From an uncultured Bacteroidales bacterium (lineage in GTDB: Bacteria; Bacteroidota; Bacteroidia; Bacteroidales; UBA932), in the NCBI GenBank assembly GCA_947306365.1, contig CAMZGD010000015.1, forward strand, positions 1 through 55,696: 55,696 nucleotides of DNA, in the 5' to 3' direction. Under the pieces are notes generated by a model. That model was not told the DNA's origin and did not search any database. It saw only the letters and a list, made by a program, of their open reading frames with translations. Of this stretch, positions 15,116 through 55,472 are shown piece by piece (the first letter of the stretch is position 1; each line of letters opens with the position of its first letter). The position numbers were made by a program, and so were the translations under genes.

Positions 15116-17128
15116 ATGATCGACCGTGCCACCGTAGACAGGATTCTGGACGCCGTCCGGATCGAAGAAGTCATCGGCGACTTCGTATCGCTGCGCAAGC
15201 GCGGAGCGAATTACCTGGGCCTGTGTCCGTTCCATCAGGACAAGAACCCCTCGATGAGCGTCTCCTCGACCAAAGGCATCTTCAAGTGCTTCGCCTGCGG
15301 CAAGGCCGGAAATGCCGTGACCTTCCTGATGGAACACGAGCATCTGACCTATGTGGAAGCGCTCCGCTACCTCGCCAGGAAATACCATATCGAAATCGTC
15401 GAAAAAGAGGAAACCGCCGAAGAGATCGCCCACCGGATGCGCTACGAGAGCCTGCTGGTGGTGACCGACTATGCCCAGAAGTTCTACGCCGACGTGCTAT
15501 GGAACACCGAAGTGGGCAAGGCCGTCGGCCTGTCGTATTTCCGGGAACGCAAGTTCACCGACGAGACCATCCGGCAGTTCGGCCTCGGCTATGCCGCCTC
15601 GCGCCCCCTGACGCTCTGCGCCCAGGCGCTGAAAGACGGCTATAAGAAAGAGTACCTGGTGGATGCGGGCCTCTGCCTCGAGCGGGAAGGGACGGGCGAA
15701 CTGTACGACCGCTTCTTCGATCGCGTGATCTTCCCGATCCACTCCATCAGCGGCCGCGTGATCGCCTTCGGCGGCCGTACGCTGAAGACCGACAAGAGCG
15801 TCGCCAAATACGTGAACAGCCCGCAGAGCGAAATCTACGACAAGAGCCGCTCGCTCTACGGCATCTTCCAGGCCAAGAACGCGATTGCCAAAAACGACAA
15901 ATGCATCCTGGTGGAAGGCTATGCCGACGTGATCTCGATGCACCAGGCCGGCATGACTAACGTGGTGGCCTCGTCGGGCACTTCGCTCACCGTGGAGCAG
16001 ATCCGGCTCATCAAGCGCTTCACCGACAAGGTCACCATCCTCTACGACGGCGACGCGGCGGGCGTCAAGGCGGCCCTGCGCGGCATCGACCTGGTGCTGG
16101 AGGAGGGCCTGAGCGTCAAGGTGGTGCTCCTGCCGCCCGAAGACGATCCCGATACATTTGCCAAGAGCCACTCCCTGATTGAGATCCGGGAATACATCGA
16201 AGAGAACGAGCAGGACTTCATCTCGCTCAAGAGCGACCTGCTGCTGCAGGAGAGCGAACGCGACCCGGTTCGCCGGGCGCAGGTGATCGGCGACATCGTG
16301 CAGAGCGTTTCGGTGGTGGCCGACCCGATCCTGCGCAACATCTACGTGGAGATGGTGGCCGAAAAGTTCGACCAGAAGACCGACTCCGTACTGGCGAAAG
16401 TCGCCGAGTTCCGCCGGAAGAAACGGGCGCTGGACCGTTCGCGGCGGCGTTTCGAAGCGCGTCCGGAAGGGCCGCTTCCGGAAGTGCCGGCCGACCTGCC
16501 GGACGGGGAGGAGCCGGCGGCCGTGCCGTCGTCGGGCTATCCCGTACGCGACGCCTATCTGGCCGTGATGGAACGCGAACTTTGCTACTACCTGATTAAA
16601 TTTGGCGCTTATCCCCTTCATTTCGAGAAGGATATGTATTTCGGGGCGGAGCCGTCCGAGGAAATTTCCGTGTCGCGGTATATCCACGACGCCCTCGACG
16701 ACGACGGACTGGTCTTCGTGAACGACCTCTACCGTACGCTGTTCGACCGTTATTTCGCTTTCACGGCTACGCTCCCGCAGGAGGAACCCGAGGCGATGCA
16801 GCAGCGGATCATCCGCTTCCTCACCACGGGCGAAGACGAGACCTTGAACCGGGCGGTCTTCGACCTGATCCTCGAGGAGCATCCCCTGACCGTCAAGACC
16901 TACGAGGAGTCCATTACGCCCGAGGAGCAGGCGCTGGCCTACACGGTACCCAAGTCCGTGCTCCTCTACAAGCTCCGCATCACCGAGCAGCAGTGCGCCG
17001 CCACGGCGAAGGAGATCGCCCGGGCGCAGCGCAGCGGCGATTCCGGCATCCTCCGGGAGCAGGTCCGCCGGCTGCAGTTGCTCAATACCGTCAAGAACAG
17101 ACTTTCAAAAGAATTGAACAGATTATGA
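15116..17128 (+). CDS. dnaG: DNA primase
   Basis: 670 aa. It synthesises RNA primers for replication with the replicative helicase. The CHC2 zinc ribbon (C37, H40, C58, C61), the primase core and a TOPRIM domain (VEGYADV and the metal-binding DGDAAG) are in the usual order, followed by a variable helicase-binding C-terminus. The start is ATG 15116, one base after the upstream stop codon; a longer reading frame from 15023 only reads through the preceding gene. The stop overlaps the metG start as ATGA. Confidence 0.97.
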
Positions 17129-19182
17129 AAAAACGGAATCTCATCACTTGCGCGTTGCCGTATGCCAACGGCCCCGTCCACATCGGCCACCTGGCCGGCG
17201 TCTATGTTCCTGCCGACATTTATGTGCGTTATCTGCGAATGCGCGGCCGCGAGACGCTTTTTGTGTGCGGATCCGACGAGCACGGCGTGCCGATCACCAT
17301 CGCGGCCCGCAAGGAAGGATGTTCCCCCCAGGATATCGTCGACAAGTACCACGCCCTCATCAAGCAGTCGTTCGCCGATTTCGGCATCACGTTCGACATC
17401 TATTCGCGCACGACCTCGGCTACGCACCACCGGTACGCCGCTGAATTCTTCCGCAAGCTCTACGACGAGGGCAAGTTCGTGGAGAAGGAGAGCGAGCAGT
17501 TCTACGATCCCGAAGCGAACGTTTTCCTGGCCGACCGCTACATCGTGGGCACCTGCCCCAAGTGCGGCAACGAAGGCGCCTATGGCGACCAGTGCGAGAA
17601 GTGCGGCTCCACGCTGAGCCCCGAGGAGCTCATCAATCCGCATTCGAAGGTGAGCGGCGCCGAGCCTGTGAAGAAGATGACCAAGCACTGGTATCTGCCG
17701 CTGAACGAATACGAACCGTGGCTCCGCCAGTGGATCCTGGAAGGCCACAAGGAATGGAAGAGCAACGTGTACGGCCAGTGCAAGAGCTGGCTCGACGGCG
17801 GCCTGCAGCCGCGTGCCGTGAGCCGCGACCTCGACTGGGGCGTGCCGGTTCCGGTGGAAGGCGCCGAAGGCAAGGTGCTCTACGTGTGGTTCGACGCGCC
17901 GATCGGCTACATCTCCAATACCATCGAACTGTTGCCCGACACCTGGGAGCAGTGGTGGAAGAGCCCCGACACGCGGATGGTCCATTTCATCGGAAAGGAC
18001 AACATCGTGTTCCACTGCATCGTGTTCCCGTCGATGCTCAAGGCGTACGGCGACGGTTTCATCCTGCCGGAGAACGTGCCCGCCAATGAGTTCCTCAATC
18101 TCGAAGGCGACAAGATCTCGACCTCGCGGAACTGGGCGGTCTGGCTCCACGAATACCTGCAGGACTTCCCCGGCAAGCAGGACACGCTCCGCTATGTACT
18201 GACGGCAAACGCACCGCAGACTTCCGACAACGATTTCACCTGGAAAGATTTCCAGACGCGGCACAACAGTGAATTGGTGGGCATTTTCGGCAACTTCGTG
18301 AACCGGGCCGTGGTGCTCACGCATAAATACTACGGTGGCGCGGTGCCGGAGCCGGGCGAACTGCAGGACATCGACCGGGAAGCGCTCGCGCAGATTCCGG
18401 TCCTGAAGCAGGCCATCGAAGAGAATCTCGAAGCCTTCAAGTTCCGCGAGGCACTCCGCGAGGCGATGAACCTCGCCCGCGTCGGCAACAAGTACATCTC
18501 CGATACGGAGCCGTGGGCGGTGGCAAAGACCGATATGGAGCGGACGGCTACGATCCTCTATACGTCGATCCAGCTCTGCGCTTCGCTGTCGGTGGCGTTC
18601 GCCCCGTTCCTGCCGTTCTCGGTGGAGAAACTCAACCGGATCCTGAACGTGACGCCGCTTGGCTGGGATGAATTCGGCCGCAGCGACCTGCTGCCCGTAG
18701 GCCACAAGCTCAATCCGGCTGAGCTGCTGTTCTCGAAGATCGAGGATGCGGAAATCGAGAAACAGGTGAAGCGGCTGGCCGACATCAAGGAGGCCCGGCT
18801 GGCAGCCGAGGCGGCGGCAGCGGCCGCTGCCGCGCCGAAGGTGGAACCGGCCAAGGATGCCTGCACGTTCGACGAGTTTGCGAAGATGGATATCCGCACG
18901 GCGACCGTCCTGGCGGCCGAGCGGGTTCCCAAGACCGACAAGCTGCTGAAACTCACCATCGACACGGGCCTTGACCAGCGGGTCATCGTGAGCGGTATCG
19001 CACAGTACTATGCGCCCGAGGACATGGTCGGCCGGCAGATCTGCATCCTGGCCAACCTCCAGCCGCGCATCATCCGCGGCATCGAAAGCAAGGGAATGAT
19101 CCTGATGGCGAAACAGATCGACGGGACGATGCGCATCGTCACGCCCGAAGAGCGCCTGTCCAACGGCGCAACGGTCGGTTAG
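17125..19182 (+). CDS. metG: Methionyl-tRNA synthetase with C-terminal tRNA-binding domain
   Basis: 685 aa. Class I aminoacyl-tRNA synthetase charging tRNA-Met. The HIGH motif is at [10 protein letters not shown] near the N-terminus, a zinc knuckle CPKCG / CEKCG follows, and KISTS serves as the KMSKS loop. An alanine-rich hinge leads to an EMAP/Trbp111-like tRNA-binding and dimerisation domain (about residues 580-685). ATG 17125 overlaps the dnaG stop by 4 bases, indicating translational coupling; the longer frame from 16993 is read-through. Confidence 0.97.
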
Positions 19183-19291
19183 TCCTCGAGACCTCGTTAC
19201 GGTCGACCGGGCCTCGCCGCCTTCGCGGGTCCATCTCCCACGATTCCCGCTGTGCCATAGCTGGCTGCTGTTTCCCGATGCAGTTATGCAG

Positions 19292-19418
19292 TTTTGTCAC
19301 GACAGGATCGTAAGATACTCCAGCGTCCTGTCGTGACACGTTTTTTGATGAAAGCCGCACTTTTGCTGCCACGACAGGACCCATAGCCCGTCCACAATCC
19401 TGTCGTGACAAAAGAAGG
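19292..19418 (+). repeat. 127-bp palindromic element, copy A (upstream of transposase module)
   Basis: Two 18-nt-loop hairpins in tandem. Arms: TTTTGTCACGACAGGA (19292-19307), TCCTGTCGTGACA (19326-19338), TGCCACGACAGGA (19367-19379) and TCCTGTCGTGACAAAA (19398-19413), then GAAGG (19414-19418). Loops are 18, the middle spacer is 28 bases. Only the third arm carries a substitution. Same length and orientation as copies at 21233 and 55346. Confidence 0.92.
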
Positions 19419-19578
19419 GTCGTGTCCCTCAGTCGACGGGCCCGTCCTTTTTTTCTTGAAAAAGGAGGTCTATTTTATTGGAAATGGAATTGTTTGAATT
19501 GTAAGGCGCAGATAATCAGTGCAATTCGGCTCTTCTTCGATATTGCTTTTTGGATGGGAGACGTTTGCGCACATAGGC

Positions 19579-19586
19579 TATCTTTG
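19579..19586 (+). promoter_or_regulatory. Promoter of the Myb-repeat / transposase pair
   Basis: TATCTTTG, a perfect TAnnTTTG -7 box, 24 bases before the start codon of the DNA-binding protein. No well-spaced -33 box is visible. Confidence 0.65.
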
Positions 19587-19609
19587 CCTTAAAACAGAAC
19601 ATATGACGT

Positions 19610-20194
19610 ATGATGAACACAAGAGAGCATTTCTTTTTTCCGACGGAGCAGTTGGAGAGCATCCGAAGAGAGGCCGGACGGTTCAACGAAGCGTGGACAG
19701 CGCAGGAAATAATGGCGGTGGTCGAACTGTTTCGAAATGGGAAACGCATCGACGAGATTGCCAGTATGCAGGGAAGGACGAAGAACGCCATCAAAATCAG
19801 ATTAGTGAACGAGGGAGAGGTGCTTCCGTATTTATCCCGGCGAGAGCAGGAATGGGCACTGGAGGAAGTGGATCGTCTGGGCCGTTTCCATTCGCAGGGC
19901 TATTCTCCCGTCGAAATTGCGAAGTTGATGGGCCGTCTCAGCCGGGAGACGCGGGACAAACTGGTGGAAATTGGCTTACTTCCGCAAAGAGAGAGGCCGG
20001 TTCGGGATCCTGAACATCCCAATGCGTTTATGCCTTGGCCGAAGGAAGAGACCGCCAGGCTTGAGCAGGAACTGTCCAGCCTGCGGACGGCCCTCGCCGG
20101 TCTGGCACGAATCGCAAAAGACCACGGCCGGTCTGTCGGCTCCATCGTCTCCCGCGCCGAAAAACTAGGACTATGCGATATTGTCGGCGCATAA
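19610..20194 (+). CDS. Triple Myb/SANT-like helix-turn-helix protein, function unknown
   Basis: 194 aa, no signal peptide or membrane segment. Three related modules of about 45 residues can be aligned by eye: 27-68 (ends GRTKNAIKIRLVNEG), 78-122 (ends GRLSRETRDKLVEIG) and 141-188 (ends GRSVGSIVSRAEKLG). Each starts with an aromatic/E-rich helix and contains a G-x-s-x-x-x-I-A turn and a GR...I..R/KL..G recognition-helix-like end. This pattern suits a multi-site DNA-binding protein. I do not recognise a named family. It lies between palindromic element A and the transposase gene, 39 bases upstream of the latter, and has its own promoter, so the two are probably co-transcribed. Lower GC than the neighbouring core genes suggests acquisition. 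Plausible roles are element recognition or transposase control; both are inference. Confidence 0.7.
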   Translation: MMNTREHFFFPTEQLESIRREAGRFNEAWTAQEIMAVVELFRNGKRIDEIASMQGRTKNAIKIRLVNEGEVLPYLSRREQEWALEEVDRLGRFHSQGYSPVEIAKLMGRLSRETRDKLVEIGLLPQRERPVRDPEHPNAFMPWPKEETARLEQELSSLRTALAGLARIAKDHGRSVGSIVSRAEKLGLCDIVGA

Positions 20195-20233
20195 TGTCCA
20201 TAGGGAAAGACGTTTGTTATAGGGTCAGGCGTT

Positions 20234-21232
20234 ATGAGGAAAGTATACCATATCTGCCTGTCATCTCATAATGAGGTGCTCTTCCGTGCTGAGACGGACT
20301 ATATTCGAGGGTTCAATTGTCTGGCAGAAACAGCATTGCTGACGGAAAGCCGGGTGCTGGCCGACGGCATTCTCTCGACGCACTGGCATACGGTCGTCCA
20401 GACGGACAATCCGAAATACTTTGTCCGGCATTATCGTTACGCATATGCCCGCTACTTCAATTCAACATACGGTCGTCGCGGGCGGCTGGGCGAGAGGACT
20501 GCGTTCATTACGGAAATCGAAGGTATCCACCGTCTTACCACAGCCATCAATTATGTGAACCGGCAGGGCTTGCATCACGGACTCACGGCGACGCCTTTCG
20601 GGTATCCGCATTGTTCGGCCAACGCATACTTCCGTAAGGACTTGGGGAAGCTCCTGTTGGATATCCCGCAGATGCTGCCCGAGCGCAGGCATCTGTTTTT
20701 GACGCGGAATGTCCGGATTCCCGAATCATATCGGATGGATCGTAACGGGCTCTTGTTGCGCGAAGATATTTTGGACATTTCGTATGTGGAACAGGTGTAC
20801 CTGACTCCGCGCAATTTCCTGTACCAGATGAACCGGTTGACCGACGACCGGATGATGGAGGAACAAAAAAGTGAAAAGTCCGGTACGCCCGTAATCAGCA
20901 TCGATCTGATTGAGCAGGGGACACCCGATTTTGATGTCAGACAGATGCTGGTCAACGAGCAGGGCCGGGTCAACAAAAACTGGATGACCGATCAGGAGTT
21001 GTGCCGGCTGATAGACGATGGGTATATTCCACGGATGAAAGGAGATAGTGACGGTACGACGATCTATTCGTTGACGTTGTCCGAACGGTCTGCGTTGTTC
21101 GAAAGAATTGGCAAGGACCTGCGTCAGGCTCGCTACGCCGACAGAAACGACGGCCGGACAGTCATCGGTGCCGCCGGCCTGGCCGGGAAGTATGTCACGG
21201 AGCCGCAGCTCCGCCGCTGTCTGGTGCTATAG
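20234..21232 (+). CDS. REP-associated tyrosine transposase-like protein (Y1/HUH family)
   Basis: 332 aa. An IS200-like Y1 transposase core occupies about residues 1-140: the HUH-type motif is HWH (H50, H52), followed by ARYFNSTYGRRGRL, typical of REP-associated transposases, and a helix INYVNRQGLHHG in which Y107 is the candidate catalytic tyrosine. Such enzymes cut single-stranded palindromic DNA. Unlike IS200 (about 150 aa) it has an extra 190-residue C-terminal region of unknown function, with a possible winged-helix segment at about 245-305. There is no left-end/right-end IS structure or accessory TnpB. Instead a 127-bp palindromic element begins directly after its stop codon and another lies upstream, the typical arrangement of RAYT genes and their repeats. 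Catalytic competence is inferred, not shown. Confidence 0.8.
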   Translation: MRKVYHICLSSHNEVLFRAETDYIRGFNCLAETALLTESRVLADGILSTHWHTVVQTDNPKYFVRHYRYAYARYFNSTYGRRGRLGERTAFITEIEGIHRLTTAINYVNRQGLHHGLTATPFGYPHCSANAYFRKDLGKLLLDIPQMLPERRHLFLTRNVRIPESYRMDRNGLLLREDILDISYVEQVYLTPRNFLYQMNRLTDDRMMEEQKSEKSGTPVISIDLIEQGTPDFDVRQMLVNEQGRVNKNWMTDQELCRLIDDGYIPRMKGDSDGTTIYSLTLSERSALFERIGKDLRQARYADRNDGRTVIGAAGLAGKYVTEPQLRRCLVL

Positions 21233-21359
21233 TTTTGTCACGACAGGACGCTGGATGGTCTCTGAGTCCTGTCGTGGCAGGGAAACCGGGGTTTCCGTCC
21301 GATTATGTGTCACGACAGGATTATAACAGGCGCTACTATCCTGTCGTGACAAAAGAAGG
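21233..21359 (+). repeat. 127-bp palindromic element, copy B (downstream of transposase)
   Basis: Arms: TTTTGTCACGACAGGA (21233-21248), TCCTGTCGTGGCA (21267-21279), TGTCACGACAGGA (21308-21320), TCCTGTCGTGACAAAA (21339-21354), then GAAGG. Loops 18 and 18, spacer 28. It fills the whole gap between the stop codons of the converging transposase and PqqD genes, so it may also serve as a bidirectional terminator. Confidence 0.92.
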
Positions 21360-21360
21360 G

Positions 21361-21630
21361 TCATTCCACGATACCCAGCTCCTGCCACTGGGCGAGGAGG
21401 CGGGCGGTGTCGGCACGTGCGGTTTCGAGATCCACGTCGTAGTCCTCACAGAGGGCCCGGGCGATGTCGTCGACGGAGAAATCGCCCAGTTCGCCGGCCT
21501 TCTCCCAGATCCAGGCGGCCGTTTCGTTGATCGAAAGCAGCTTGCCGAAATCGATGGCGCCAAGGCCTTCGCCTACGATTACTTTTTCGCCGCACACTTC
21601 GCGCAGCACGAATCCTTCTTTCCGTTTCAT
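21361..21630 (-). CDS. PqqD-family peptide-chaperone-like protein
   Basis: 89 aa. PqqD/RRE fold: an N-terminal strand region followed by a winged-helix with the typical INETAAWIWE segment (about residues 34-43) and a DIARAL helix. PqqD proteins bind leader peptides of ribosomally made, modified peptides and hand them to modifying enzymes. The start at 21630 is preferred over longer in-frame starts because it overlaps the preceding peptidase stop as ATGA. Last gene of a three-gene minus-strand operon with an S24/S26-type peptidase and an HPr-kinase-like protein. No precursor peptide or radical SAM enzyme is visible nearby. Confidence 0.85.
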   Translation of the reverse strand: MKRKEGFVLREVCGEKVIVGEGLGAIDFGKLLSINETAAWIWEKAGELGDFSVDDIARALCEDYDVDLETARADTARLLAQWQELGIVE

Positions 21631-22124
21631 TGTATGTCGATATTGCGGATAATCGTTCGTTTGTAGATGGCCAGCAGCCATCGACGGACCGGCAGGAGCC
21701 GCCGCCAAAGTCGTGCCAGACGGCGTTGGCGCGGAGAATCGAGCCGACGGTGAACGCCGTCGGCGCCCACCACTTCGTCGGCCCGCGCCAGTACTTCGTG
21801 CAGCGGGCAGCGCTCCCGGCCGCGAAGATTGCCGTCGCCCATCAGCACGACGCAGCGATCGACATCTCCGGCTCCTGCGTCCGGATTTCCGGCGATCTCG
21901 ATGACGCGGTGCAGCACGAAGCGCCTGCCGTCGATGCGGGCCAGCACCACATCCCCTTCGCGGATGTCGACCGGACGGGTCAGCACGACGCTGTCCCGTC
22001 CGCCGAGAATGAACGGCAACATGCTGCGCCCCTTCACCGGCAGGGTCACCGCGAGGCCTTCGTCGACCAGGTTGACGGCGTCGCGGATAATCTCTTCGTC
22101 GGTCAGGTTAGCCATCTTACACAT
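21627..22124 (-). CDS. S24/S26-family (signal peptidase I-like) peptidase
   Basis: 165 aa. The nucleophile motif VKGRSMLPFI (S34) and a following RFVLHRVI segment are those of the S24/S26 fold shared by LexA and signal peptidase I. A classical catalytic lysine region is not obvious: the second motif has an R/H pattern as seen in atypical S26 members. No clear N-terminal membrane anchor is present, so it may be cytoplasmic, with a basic C-terminal tail (RRLARLWRRLLPVRRWLLA) that could be amphipathic. The start may be 22124 or 22115; both overlap or abut the end of the upstream kinase-like gene. It may process a peptide handled by PqqD (inference). Confidence 0.75.
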   Translation of the reverse strand: MCKMANLTDEEIIRDAVNLVDEGLAVTLPVKGRSMLPFILGGRDSVVLTRPVDIREGDVVLARIDGRRFVLHRVIEIAGNPDAGAGDVDRCVVLMGDGNLRGRERCPLHEVLARADEVVGADGVHRRLDSPRQRRLARLWRRLLPVRRWLLAIYKRTIIRNIDIQ

Positions 22125-22995
22125 GGGTTATATGGTCGTGGCAGAGGCGTGCGGCCGCTTCGTCAGGCAGGCACTGGAGATGCCAGACCGGGATGTTCGT
22201 CGCAAGGGCGTTTTCGGTTTCGTGCAGGCCGTCGGCCAGCGACCGGTCCCAGCGCTTGCCCGAGATGCCAGGCAACAGCACGGCGTAGGCCGTGATGCCG
22301 TAAAGCCGCCGGATGGCGTTGAAGGGAGCCTGTTCAAGCTGTACGAAACCGCCGACCGGGAAGTCCAGGTTGCGATAGCACGGCGTCTTTCCGCTCCAGG
22401 GCGATCCGTACACCCGCGCGGACCCGTCGGGAAAGACGCGCACCACGGGATTGTCGTCGTTGACCAGTTCGGAACCGGGGACATGCTTGAGCCACAGGCG
22501 CGCGTGCGTGCTTTTTCCGGTGCCGCTCCTGCCCAGGAAGAGGTAGCCGCGGCCTTCGTACCCGATGACGGCCGCATGGAAGAGCGCCGTGCCGAACCGG
22601 GCGCTGCTCAAGGCGTAAAGCACCATCAGGGCGTTGCCCAGCGTGTACGCGGGATGGGCGCAAAGCGCGAGTTTTGCCGTGCCGTAACCGGGAGCGGCCA
22701 GCATCCGGCCTGAAAGGGTATCCCCCAGGCAGAATTCGAACCAGGAACCGCCGTCCGGCGTCCGGAACAGACGGATTCGGGAACCGTCGTCATTCTGGTC
22801 GAATTCCTCCGTAAGGCCGTCCGGAACCGGAAGGGCCGCTTCCCGGACCAGGTGCAGCCGGAAAAGCCGTTCCGGCGCCGTCGCGGGGTCGGCAGCGAAC
22901 GGAGCGTAGTGCAACAGCGCCTCCGTCAAGTCCACCCCCTCGCCGGCTTCTACCGAAAAGCAATGCCCGGCAACGATATGGCAAAACTCCTTCAT
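22117..22995 (-). CDS. HPr kinase/PEPCK-like P-loop protein
   Basis: 292 aa. The C-terminal half has an HprK/PEP-carboxykinase-like nucleotide-binding fold: Walker A GRSGTGKST (155-163), an NDDNP acidic motif (179-183) and GSPWSGKTPCYRN. The N-terminal 130 residues are unrelated to the HprK sensor domain. Similar HprK-like proteins occur beside PqqD and small proteases in lasso-peptide and other modified-peptide clusters, where they phosphorylate peptides or serine residues. ATG 22995 is preferred because a longer frame (to 23034) runs into the terminator hairpin at 23013-23035. First gene of the three-gene cassette; its 3' end overlaps the peptidase start by 8 bases. Confidence 0.75.
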   Translation of the reverse strand: MKEFCHIVAGHCFSVEAGEGVDLTEALLHYAPFAADPATAPERLFRLHLVREAALPVPDGLTEEFDQNDDGSRIRLFRTPDGGSWFEFCLGDTLSGRMLAAPGYGTAKLALCAHPAYTLGNALMVLYALSSARFGTALFHAAVIGYEGRGYLFLGRSGTGKSTHARLWLKHVPGSELVNDDNPVVRVFPDGSARVYGSPWSGKTPCYRNLDFPVGGFVQLEQAPFNAIRRLYGITAYAVLLPGISGKRWDRSLADGLHETENALATNIPVWHLQCLPDEAAARLCHDHITHV

Positions 22996-23012
22996 CCAGG
23001 TTACAAATACGG

Positions 23013-23035
23013 GATGCCCGGCCAAGCCGGGCATC
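23013..23035 (-). terminator. Hairpin after the fumarase gene
   Basis: Ten-bp perfect stem (GATGCCCGGC / GCCGGGCATC) with a three-base loop, 5 bases after the fumarase stop codon on the minus strand. No T run follows, so it may be a weak or Rho-assisted terminator separating fumarase from the kinase-like gene. Confidence 0.6.
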
Positions 23036-23040
23036 TCAAA

Positions 23041-24657
23041 TTATTTGAACTTCGCGAAGAAGTCGTTCCCCTTGTCGTCCACCAGGATGAAGGCGGGGAA
23101 ATTCTCCACGCGGATCTTCCAGATGGCTTCCATGCCGAGTTCGGGGTATTCGACGCACTCGATCGACTTGATGTTGTCCTGCGCCAGCAGCGCGGCGGGG
23201 CCGCCGATCGAGCCGAGGTAGAAGCCGCCGTGCTTCCGGCAGGCGTCGGTCACCTGCTGGCTGCGGTTGCCCTTGGCCAGCATCACCATGCTGCCGCCAT
23301 GGCTTTGGAACAGGTCGACGTACGGGTCCATGCGGCCGGCCGTCGTCGGGCCCATCGAGCCGCAGGCCATCCCTGCCGGCGTCTTGGCCGGGCCGGCGTA
23401 GTAGATCGGGTGGTCCTTCAGGTACTGGGGCATCGGTTCGCCGCGGTCGAGGCGTTCCTTGATCTTCGCGTGGGCGATGTCGCGGCCCACGATGATGGTG
23501 CCGTTCAGGCTCAGGCGCGTGCCGATCGGATACTTCGTCAGGATCTTGCACACTTCGGACATCGGCTGGTCGAGGTCGATCTTCACGGCATTGCCCTCGC
23601 CGGCCCGGCGGAGTTCCTCCGGAATCCAGCGGCCCGGGTTGTCGTCGAGCTTCTCGATCCACACGCCGTCCTTGTCGATCCTGCACTTGATGTTGCGGTC
23701 GGCCGAGCAGCTCACGCCCAGGCCGACGGGGCAGCTGGCGCCGTGGCGCGGCAGCCGGATGATGCGCACGTCGTGCGCCATGTACTTGCCGCCGAACTGG
23801 GCGCCGAGGCCGATCCTGCAGGCTTCCTCCCACACTTTTTTCTCGAGTTCGACGTCGCGGAAGGCGCGTCCGGTCTCGTCGCCGGTGGTCGGCAGGTTGT
23901 CGTAGTACTTGCAGGAGGCTAGTTTCACGGTGAGCAGGTTGCGCTCGGCCGAGGTGCCGCCGATGACGAAGGCGATGTGGTAGGGCGGGCAGGCTGCGGT
24001 ACCGAGGGTCTTCATCTTGCCCACGAGGAACGGCACGAGCGTGCCGGGATTGAGGATGGCCTTGGTCTCCTGGTAGAGGTAGCTCTTATTGGCGCTTCCG
24101 CCGCCCTTGGTCACGCAGAGGAAGCGGTATTCCATGCCTTCGGTCGCCTCGATGTCGATCTGGGCGGGCAGGTTGCACTTGGTGTTGACTTCTTCGTACA
24201 TCGACAGCGGTGCGTTCTGGCTGTAGCGGAGGTTTTCTTCGGTGTAGGTCTTGAAGACGCCCTTCGAGAGCGCCGCCTCGTCGCAGAAGCCGGTCCAGAC
24301 CTGCTGGCCCTTCTCCCCGTGGATGATGGCCGTGCCGGTATCCTGGCAGAACGGAAGCTTGCCCTTGCAGGCCACCTCGGCGTTGCGCAGCATCGTCAGG
24401 GCCACGTACTTGTCGTTCTCTGACGCTTCCGGGTCGGAGAGGATCTTCGCCACCTGGGCGTTATGGGCCGGGCGGAGCATGAACGATACGTCACGGAAAG
24501 CCGTGTTGGCCATCACGGTGAGCGCTTCGGGCGCTACCTTGAGCATCGGCTTGCCTTCGAAATCGCCGACCGAGACCCACGCCTCGGAACCGGGAATGCG
24601 ATAGTACTCGGTGGTGTCTTCGCCGAGCTGAAACATCGGAGCGTATTTGAATTCCAT
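23041..24657 (-). CDS. Fumarate hydratase class I (iron-sulfur, FumA/B type)
   Basis: 538 aa, cytoplasmic. Interconverts fumarate and malate using an oxygen-sensitive 4Fe-4S cluster. N-terminal alpha domain with the cluster cysteine in PFCQDTGTA and a second in [19 protein letters not shown]; the C-terminal beta domain carries [18 protein letters not shown]. The length matches single-polypeptide class I enzymes. It lies 22 bases after prfB and ends the long rlmN-to-fumarase operon, with a hairpin after its stop codon. Confidence 0.95.
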
Positions 24658-54312: not shown

Positions 54313-54534
54313 ATGTATTGGACGCTTGAGCTTGCATCAAAACTGGAGGATGCCCCCTGGCCCGCAACCCGGGAAGAACTGATCGATTACGCTACTCGTT
54401 CGGGAGCTCCGCTTGAAGTGATTGAAAACCTGGAAGACCTCGAGGAAGACGGTGAAGTCTATGAGTCCATCGAAGACATCTGGCCCGATTATCCGACCAA
54501 GGACGACTTCTTCTTCGACGAGGAGGAATATTGA
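54313..54534 (+). CDS. DUF2795 family acidic small protein
   Basis: 73 aa, strongly acidic C-terminus. Matches the short DUF2795 proteins conserved in Bacteroidota (MYWTLELASKLEDAPWPATR, then a DLEEDGEVYESIEDIWPDY segment). Function unknown. It has its own promoter and a very strong terminator, so it is a single-gene unit and probably well expressed. Confidence 0.9.
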   Translation: MYWTLELASKLEDAPWPATREELIDYATRSGAPLEVIENLEDLEEDGEVYESIEDIWPDYPTKDDFFFDEEEY

Positions 54535-54566
54535 TACAGCGCAATCGCGGAAAACAACCGTTTTGA

Positions 54567-54607
54567 AAAAGCAGGGTGGCCAAAAAACTTTTGGCCACCC
54601 TGCTTTT
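54567..54607 (+). terminator. Strong terminator after DUF2795
   Basis: Fifteen-bp perfect stem GCAGGGTGGCCAAAA (54571-54585) / TTTTGGCCACCCTGC (54589-54603), extended by AAAA/TTTT on the outside and followed by A. Symmetrical, so it could act in both directions. Confidence 0.9.
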
Positions 54608-54844
54608 ATGGACAGTCCGCCCGTCATTGACCGCCGCGCCCCGCCAGTTTTCGCCGGATCTCCGCCGACCCCGCCGGCGGTTTCCTCGGGCGTCGGACGC
54701 CTTTCTTTATTTTTTCGTCGCCGTCCTCACAGGAGGCTCTCTATGAGGAGGGCGCACTTCAATTTCGCGGTTCCATCCTCACCGATATCCTTCTTTGAGG
54801 ACGAGCGGAAAAAGAGTATATTTGGCGTGTTAAACTATTGCAAT
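54608..54844. other. Non-coding stretch between terminator and membrane-protein promoter
   Basis: After the terminator the DNA is GC-rich to about 54710 and then AT-richer. No supported gene is visible; an in-frame ATG at 54743 would extend the next protein by 34 residues but lies upstream of its promoter. A promoter is clear at the right end: TTTG (54794-54797), 19 bases, TATATTTG (54817-54824). Confidence 0.7.
54794..54824 (+). promoter_or_regulatory. Textbook Bacteroidota promoter of the membrane-protein gene
   Basis: TTTG at 54794-54797 and TATATTTG at 54817-54824 with the canonical 19-base spacing. This is the best-formed promoter in the window, 20 bases before the ATG. Confidence 0.8.
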
Positions 54845-55330
54845 ATGATTATTCTGATTGAAGGTCTGGCAATGTGCTTCATCTTGCTTATCATCTGTGT
54901 GATCGGCATTGCCAAAGAGGGGCCTGTAGGATTGGTAACCTTTTACGAGCAGGATGTTAAGGACCGGGTGGTTAAACTTGGTCTAACCACAAAAGAGAAG
55001 ATACAGAAAAGCACTGCCATTGTTGGGATCGCTGTTTTGATTCCATCTCTTTTATTAATTCCATACATGGTATATGGCGTCAATGGAGCCGCAGGATTCT
55101 GGGATGGTTTTTGGCAAATGACAGTTATCGGATTGATAGTGGGTGTCTTCGACCGTATCTTCATTGACTGGTACTGGGTGGGAAAAACCAAGGCTTGGGA
55201 AATCCCCGGTACAGAGGACTTGAAGCCGTATATCCCCAAAAGTACAGTTATCAGGAAGTGGATTGCAACAGTCATTGTTCATCCGGCCTTTTATGCATTG
55301 ATTGCCTGGGCGATGACACTGATTCGGTAA
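54845..55330 (+). CDS. Small four-helix membrane protein of unknown function
   Basis: 161 aa. Transmembrane helices at about 2-23, 56-77, 87-106 and 140-160, with a conserved-looking loop IDWYWVGKTKAWEIPGTED (about 109-127). From memory a similar loop occurs in uncharacterised membrane proteins of Firmicutes, which would fit horizontal transfer; the lower GC content compared with the neighbours supports this. ATG 54845 lies just after the promoter. A 127-bp palindromic element begins 16 bases after the stop codon. Confidence 0.78.
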   Translation: MIILIEGLAMCFILLIICVIGIAKEGPVGLVTFYEQDVKDRVVKLGLTTKEKIQKSTAIVGIAVLIPSLLLIPYMVYGVNGAAGFWDGFWQMTVIGLIVGVFDRIFIDWYWVGKTKAWEIPGTEDLKPYIPKSTVIRKWIATVIVHPAFYALIAWAMTLIR

Positions 55331-55345
55331 GCAACCGCACTGTAC

Positions 55346-55472
55346 TTTTGTCACGACAGGACGCTGGACAGGTTGTCAATCCTGTCGCGGCATGAAAACA
55401 GGGGTCCTCGCCCAAAATCACGTCACGACAGGACCCATAGTGAGTCTACGATCCTGTCGTGACAAAAGAAGG
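55346..55472 (+). repeat. 127-bp palindromic element, copy C (remote from the transposase)
   Basis: Arms: TTTTGTCACGACAGGA (55346-55361), TCCTGTCGCGGCA (55380-55392, two substitutions), CGTCACGACAGGA (55421-55433, one substitution), TCCTGTCGTGACAAAA (55452-55467), then GAAGG. Loops 18 and 18, spacer 28. Outer arms are identical to those of copies A and B. Confidence 0.92.

Follow-up and report, generated by a model that had tools for sequence, protein, structure and literature searches.

The DNA analyzed here (the window, 55,696 nucleotides; contig CAMZGD010000015.1 of assembly GCA_947306365.1, from an uncultured Bacteroidales bacterium of the GTDB lineage UBA932) harbors a compact module in which the genes for a Y1/HUH transposase and a triple helix-turn-helix (HTH) protein are enclosed by two units of paired hairpins. 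It is considered highly probable that this module represents a system akin to those formed by repetitive extragenic palindrome (REP)-associated tyrosine transposases (RAYTs) and REP doublets (REPINs), comprising a Y1/HUH protein, lineage-specific paired hairpins, and an accessory HTH protein. Its description as a REPtron-like module of a new subclass is well supported, the module being known in kind but set apart by the diversity of its stems, a fixed spacing, the lack of a GTAG foot, and its HTH partner. The features concerned are as follows:

19292 to 19418, no strand: upstream two-hairpin (REPIN-like) unit (supported by DNA folding), with hairpins at 19295-19338 and 19367-19410, whose starts lie 72 bp apart
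19610 to 20194, plus strand: triple Myb/SANT-like HTH protein of 194 amino acids
20234 to 21232, plus strand: Y1/HUH transposase (RAYT-like) of 332 amino acids, with H50, H52, and Y107 and a C-terminal extension at approximately residues 235 to 332
21233 to 21359, no strand: downstream two-hairpin unit, with hairpins at 21236-21279 and 21308-21351, the interior being closer to an inverted copy of the upstream unit
55345 to 55472, no strand: solitary unit close to the end of the contig, with a stem of the module's family and lying approximately 20 bp past the open reading frame (ORF) at 54422-55330

The positions and plus-strand placement initially given to the two module ORFs were confirmed, and the module is AT-richer, as had been claimed, with a GC content of 0.529 versus 0.609 for the window and with 0.2% of 2068-bp segments being equal or lower.

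The transposase and its family

The identification of the larger ORF as a Y1/HUH protein was borne out by its predicted fold, which is nearest to that of TnpA-REP (VIA-align, by which model residues beyond 216-234 were barely tested), and by the invariance of H50, H52, and Y107, which are retained in 52 of 52 homologs. Searches of Pfam, PADLOC, and PHROGs returned nothing for the window transposase, NCBIfam returned a single chance-level match, and a plasmid search gave no match. Among the homologs, 11 of 52 matched Pfam Y1_Tnp at E <= 0.1 (best 8.9e-5), while single rescans of 10 homologs gave seven matches (best 4.2e-4), all below the Pfam cut-off, and none for L093, L106, and L098. A PDB sequence-profile search with the family yielded five rows, in which a true transposase (2ec2) appeared only at E 0.76; the best row, 8prj (1.1e-4), was rejected, being a designed, unrelated protein that is only partially matched.

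Close homologs span approximately 310 to 345 amino acids, and the C-terminal extension of the window protein amounts to approximately 100 residues. The catalytic tyrosine of the window protein lies in the motif Y107-VNRQ, which departs from the Y---NP signature, and the protein is, on its sequence, not filed under class 2 TnpA-Y1; descent from class 2 is nevertheless plausible, since a distant homolog (L096, 34 to 36% identical) carries YILRNP.

One hundred genomes were searched, including that of the window (G000; 2.14 Mb, 34 contigs, 87% complete), 40 being of the same genus and 40 from outside the family. A homolog at E <= 0.001 was present in 39 of the 100, with up to 11 matches per genome when distant ones are included, and no transposase match was obtained in any of the 40 genomes outside the family. 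When a profile of close members was applied to 393 genomes of the order, only the genome of the window passed E <= 1e-20. Within this sampling, the close transposase family does not extend beyond the genus and some members of the taxonomic family to which the genus belongs. Four further Y1 matches are present in the window genome, those listed being G000:C8:73676, C10:69472, and C5:65363 (51, 28, and 28% identical, respectively). For comparative purposes, 80 named relatives were kept of 119 confirmed stretches, giving an examined set of 81 loci with that of the window; all 80 are titled Bacteroidales or Bacteroidia bacteria (metagenome-assembled genomes or uncultured), with stated sources that are mainly ruminant forestomachs and in some cases horse faeces.

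Anatomy of the paired-hairpin units

The initial annotation described two 127-bp elements bracketing the genes in the same orientation. Their length is exactly 127 bp and each consists of two hairpins, but the copies are not close in sequence, and the claim of a shared orientation is not confirmed: with stems included, the units agree at 77 of 127 positions (61%) when direct versus 89 of 122 (73%) when inverted, while the agreement for the spacer alone is 0.30 and 0.54, respectively. The final 12 nt (AAAAGAAGGGTC) represent the sole direct repeat. At 13 loci of the first set with a clean pair on both flanks, the units are direct in nine and better matched when inverted in four, including the window. 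Each half of a unit is itself a near-perfect palindrome, and the relative orientation of the two hairpins is therefore undefined. In size the units are akin to REPINs, which measure approximately 100 to 150 bp.

The hairpins possess stems of approximately 10 to 14 bp and loops of 16 to 18 nt. Same-stem hairpins with centers 69 to 76 bp apart were found in 60 of the 81 loci, and in none of 79 loci shuffled once each; without an imposed distance, the spacing of neighbors was exactly 72 bp in 53 of 84 cases and 71 to 75 bp in 71 of 84. Alignment of 46 nonredundant units revealed shared positions outside the stems, among them a TG immediately internal to the first stem (0.9 bits) and runs of A towards either end of the spacer (up to 0.8 bits); the maximum in the shuffled control was 0.47. 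The twelve stem columns of each hairpin show on average 77 to 80% Watson-Crick pairing, compared with 24 to 30% after sliding, and a single column may hold as many as four pair types; given that inverted repeats were the basis for selecting the loci, it is solely this variety of pair types that carries information. The stem core, which reads CGCGA in most units, is near-constant, and the inner pairs vary by lineage. A TGCGNCG-like motif, a possible guide or cleavage site, was observed on the 5' side of the first hairpin, approximately 15 to 20 nt away, for 11 of the 46 units (L201, L219, L225, L226, L246, and others), sometimes recurring in the loop.

An explanation of the hairpins as conventional intrinsic terminators or as RNA structures is regarded as extremely unlikely. 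They do lie beside and between genes, and a T-run (19339-19348) follows the first upstream hairpin; against this stand the 16- to 18-nt loops, the fixed 72-bp pairing, the tie between stem and transposase lineage, and the lack of any Rfam match at window positions 17000-24000. A terminator scan gave five sites versus 2.6 (standard deviation, 2.0) in shuffles, although it allowed loops of 3 to 8 nt and is therefore no test of hairpins with loops of 16 to 18 nt.

Co-diversification of stems and transposases

Hairpin stems and transposases have diversified together. In a Mantel test, the correlation between protein and stem identity was 0.427 for 57 loci and 0.361 for 45 loci below 90% identity, neither value being reached in 5000 permutations (L193, L194, and L248 were left out, their stem word lying in another frame or being fused). 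Mean stem identity amounts to 75 to 90% for pairs above 70% protein identity and to 57% at 60 to 70%. Six ortholog pairs of genomes G034 and G036 each have a stem common to both members (L207/L212, L226/L227, L223/L219, L233/L232, L244/L248, and L246/L247), the stem words of L244 and L248 being exactly complementary; five of the six are sisters in the tree, while L219 and L223 fall in a three-row clade with L258. The stems of the paralogs read within G034 (six) and G036 (seven) all differ from one another in each genome. Examples of paralog stems are CCACAGAATG and GCGACGCAGA. Across the 45 transposases below 90% identity, no two share an identical 12-nt stem core, any difference being counted. 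Comparable co-diversification is described for the RAYTs and REPs of Gammaproteobacteria (Nunvar 2010, PMC2817692).

Distribution of the units

The hairpin pattern of the module is not a product of chance: its exact form occurs at six places in the window genome, four of them at the module, and the reversed control pattern at none. A relaxed stem pattern (CRCGACAGGA...TCCTGTCGYG) recovered eight hairpins in this genome, four at the module, two at window positions 55352-55461, and two at C6:33043-33152, again with none for the reversed control, and a more divergent unit lies at C6:56393-56526. The three solitary units of this genome overlap no ORF and are thus intergenic; more broadly, ORFs of at least 90 amino acids from a crude greedy set, many of which are short and probably spurious, coincide at least in part with 32 of 52 units.

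The window stem type was detected in 6 of the 40 genus genomes, namely G000 (8 hairpins), G011 (57), G039 (6), G008 (5), G033 (3), and G036 (1). It had been expected that such elements would be found by the dozen only alongside the transposase; all six genomes indeed hold an ortholog of at least 60% identity or are the window genome itself. A seventh genome with an ortholog, G018, has the stem CGCGACGTGAA. Hairpins with the stem CGCGACGACA were found among the 40 genomes in G036 (9), G034 (9), and G024 (1).

Two further arrangements were observed. Locus L148 (G011:C23:18672-19429) is a tandem array of 11 hairpins with an exact 72-bp period and mostly near-identical loops. Composites of two stem families side by side (CCACAGAATG beside CGCGACGACA or CGCGACAGGA) occur at L168, L169, and G011:C9:44013-44236 (L153).

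The triple HTH protein

The triple nature attributed to the HTH protein is supported by an AlphaFold model with nine helices in three groups of three (mean pLDDT 79.7, pTM 0.51), by internal repeats detected with HHalign (r1-r2, 97%; r1-r3, 86%; r2-r3, 73%), and by similarity to Pfam Myb (E 1.1e-6). Thirteen PHROGs families were matched (best 1.8e-13; a D5-like regulator at 3.7e-13), with no match in PADLOC. The sequence is well conserved (mean column identity, 66%) and the gene is under purifying selection, with ratios of nonsynonymous to synonymous substitution (dN/dS) of 0.04 to 0.23 in the 14 of 36 pairs for which dS was estimable (G036-G034, 0.04; G033-G024, 0.09) and saturated synonymous sites in the other 22.

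A match to the HTH protein at E 0.001 was found in 10 of the 40 genus genomes, nine of these being strong. The notion that the two genes are conserved neighbors held in part: the HTH gene adjoins an intact transposase gene in five of the nine (the window genome, G008, G039, G036, and G011), but in G024 and G034 it adjoins a deleted transposase, and in G033 and G018 the ortholog lies on a different contig. One further pair of neighbors was found at L194. The deleted gene of G024 (L127, 1169-1498) is an in-frame remnant lacking residues 82 to 298, and thus Tyr107, beside an intact HTH gene.

It is pertinent to ask whether the 127-bp units are double-stranded operators of the HTH protein, constituting a small regulon with the transposase as a passenger. 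The arms of the units are near-perfect half-sites, units persist in G034, and the HTH gene is preserved intact at loci whose neighboring transposase has been deleted or is missing, with a low dN/dS that is not datable to after the loss. This explanation is nonetheless judged unlikely, as the flanks fetched for 51 of the 60 paired-hairpin loci yielded no HTH gene and the stem tracks the transposase, while the HTH protein would appear to be conserved as stems vary. A weaker form, in which HTH binding occurs besides Y1 action, belongs to the proposed RAYT-REPIN-like system itself.

In another transposase clade, a distantly related two-repeat Myb-like gene was observed at L204 (2262-2995), L250 (949-1660), and L256 (1188-1562), within the element frame only in L204, and an uncharacterized 119-amino-acid ORF accompanies the same clade (L204, L250, L218, and L222; weakly in L256). 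No other upstream partner was conserved across the transposase clades of the first locus set.

Genomic setting and rearrangements

One or more of metG, hprK, fumA, and prfB lie within the fetched flank at eight of the nine HTH loci (none at G008), and the module consequently looks old and largely inherited in one neighborhood, with local rearrangement. This bears on the proposal that the module is a mobile insertion sequence (IS)-like transposon with terminal repeats and the HTH gene as a passenger. Although related repeats frame the genes, the GC content is below that of the neighborhood, and the HTH and transposase genes lie on different contigs in G033 and G018, such a transposon is deemed very unlikely: the neighborhood is shared as described, the matches listed show a single one per genome at 60% identity or more, the next match in the window genome is only 51% identical, and 18 of the 21 ortholog pairs of the transposase have reached saturation at synonymous sites.

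To the right of the module, window positions 21361-23034 carry three minus-strand genes, which we take to encode PqqD-like, S24 peptidase-like, and HprK-like proteins; in G039, this block has the inverted orientation with respect to the module. In G036 (contig C19), the 3' end of metG is present twice, flanking the module on both sides (L052, 69-386 and 6196-6423). In other modules (L251, L252, L255; L205; L196; L232), unrelated ORFs, mostly on the opposite strand, lie between the upstream unit and the transposase.

Comparison of G036 with G034 (L168 versus L169/L177, on G036:C29 and G034:C4; L171 versus L170) revealed several ends of blocks of 93 to 99.5% identity within approximately 10 bp of units (for example, L168 9181, L169 8418 and 17915, L171 8423, L170 4571). 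In G034, moreover, two composite units in direct orientation enclose a block of approximately 9.6 kb that is missing at the matching place in G036, where one unit is present. The units may accordingly be viewed as recombination sites for cassette-like exchange of gene blocks, with the Y1 protein as recombinase, an explanation which is compatible with the RAYT-REPIN-like system but which we hold to be quite improbable. Ordinary RecA-dependent recombination between repeats accounts for breakpoints at units equally well, the observation derives from one genome pair without statistics, and other breaks lie away from units, such as the transposase deletion, which is situated between short direct repeats.

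Comparison with known systems

The module resembles Escherichia coli TnpA-REP (RAYT, PDB 4er8), its REPs, and the REPtron in the HUH-Y1 fold and catalytic residues, in the palindromes flanking the gene, in related palindromes elsewhere in the genome, and in transposase-palindrome co-diversification as outlined in PMC2817692. It differs in the absence of a GT[AG]G foot, in YVNRQ in place of Y---NP, in 98 extra C-terminal residues, in its 16- to 18-nt loops, in its HTH partner, and in its low copy number. With REPINs, as presented by Bertels and Rainey (2011, PMC3116915), it shares the REP doublet as the proposed unit and the occurrence of tandem clusters; the REPs described there are inverted and pair into one hairpin, whereas in the present units each half forms a long palindrome of its own, with a fixed spacing of 72 bp. 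TnpA-Y1 subclass 2.6 is likewise found in Bacteroidetes with atypical flanking secondary structures lacking GT[AG]G, but its reported median length of 179 amino acids and YIH[QN]NP motif (Quentin et al. 2018, PMC6006769) contrast with the approximately 310 to 345 amino acids found here and the absence of NP from the window protein. Unlike TnpA of the IS200/IS605 family (IS608, ISDra2), the transposase has no near-identical second copy in its own genome and has an extra C-terminal region.

In the broad sense, the attributes of a RAYT/TnpA-REP are present (the nearest fold, a HuH pair with one Tyr, and cognate palindromes both flanking the gene and elsewhere in the genome), as is the doublet of a REPIN in the form of 72-bp pairs. 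The initial annotation had considered the module unlike any known RAYT system; it is indeed noncanonical, with no GT[AG]G foot, no Y---NP, an extension of approximately 100 residues, and an HTH gene inside the module, but a RAYT-type gene beside its own palindromes is known in kind. Among the literature matches listed, which mostly left subscription journals out of scope, none dealt with a RAYT/REPIN system from these bacteria.

A number of observations weigh against this assignment or weaken the initial interpretation. A GT[AG]G foot was present at 5 of 92 outer feet (14 nt), approximately 8 being expected by chance (hand estimate), and no GTAG guide was found. No 72-bp pair was found at 21 of the 81 loci, including all six of the outgroup (L262 to L267). 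Stem covariation is also expected of a palindromic double-strand site, and the units were picked for inverted repeats. The link between stem and protein is evident only at close range, stem identity reaching a floor of 51 to 53% below 60% protein identity, and the 98 residues beyond the TnpA-REP match have no assigned role. The HTH and transposase genes do not form an intact pair in the four genomes named above, and only 9 of the 81 loci (the window plus 8 of 80; two queries) yielded an HTH gene in the flanks fetched, which indicates that this gene lies outside the core mechanism. Most genomes hold few copies, dozens being reached only in G011, and the single window-type hairpin of G036 lies away from the ortholog, which is itself flanked by CGCGACGACA. 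Abundance of the element in genomes lacking the transposase, initially named as refuting, is borne out in part by G034 (76% complete), where nine CGCGACGACA hairpins are present and no more of the ortholog than a remnant was detected; since its close relative G036 has the transposase gene, recent loss in G034 is likely, and the persistence of CGCGACGACA units in G034 and G024, in which the transposase next to the HTH gene is reduced to a remnant, implies that units can outlive the enzyme. Finally, no clean filled and empty unit site was obtained from the surroundings of G036 units in G034, where the comparison gave rearrangements, or from the proteins beside two window-genome units across the genus, which were too variable.

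Proposed mechanism and implications

Based on the above, it is proposed that the Y1/HUH protein would recognize single-stranded DNA (ssDNA) hairpins by a stem address consisting of a near-constant core and a more variable inner part, the address probably residing in the latter because the core is near-constant while the inner pairs vary by lineage. Given the fold, the catalytic residues, and the cognate hairpins, single-strand cleavage and joining at the units is the likeliest activity, in which the protein would cut and rejoin DNA via Tyr107. Two hairpins approximately 72 bp apart would constitute one 127-bp unit, such units flanking the gene and occurring in low to moderate number elsewhere; the pairing may reflect one unit per dimer or the unit of copying. 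With each transposase lineage having its own stem, several paralogs could coexist in a genome as mutually orthogonal systems whose substrates are not shared. The triple HTH protein would be an accessory of this clade, most likely binding double-stranded units or the module promoter as a repressor or targeting factor, and its survival without a neighboring enzyme suggests that it has other targets.

A more far-reaching version may be entertained tentatively, as possible though doubtful. The family would represent a natural, growing series of ssDNA-hairpin endonucleases that are orthogonal to one another, each with its own stem in a shared 72-bp-paired unit; the triple HTH protein of this clade would have co-opted the units into a regulatory or targeting network outliving the transposase, and the units would in addition be the places at which DNA is broken and joined during the exchange of gene blocks.

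To our knowledge, few transposase-palindrome pairs have been dissected biochemically overall. REP recognition has been so dissected for three such pairs, as covered in PMC8266576. The 45 transposases with distinct stems on a common scaffold, including sets of paralogs within single genomes, represent a data set for decoding protein-hairpin specificity, and the stem changing in step with the transposase makes the specificity of this hairpin-enzyme partnership testable. The module thereby extends REPIN-RAYT biology to a new subclass in gut Bacteroidales and provides a case of a DNA-binding partner surviving the loss of its transposase.
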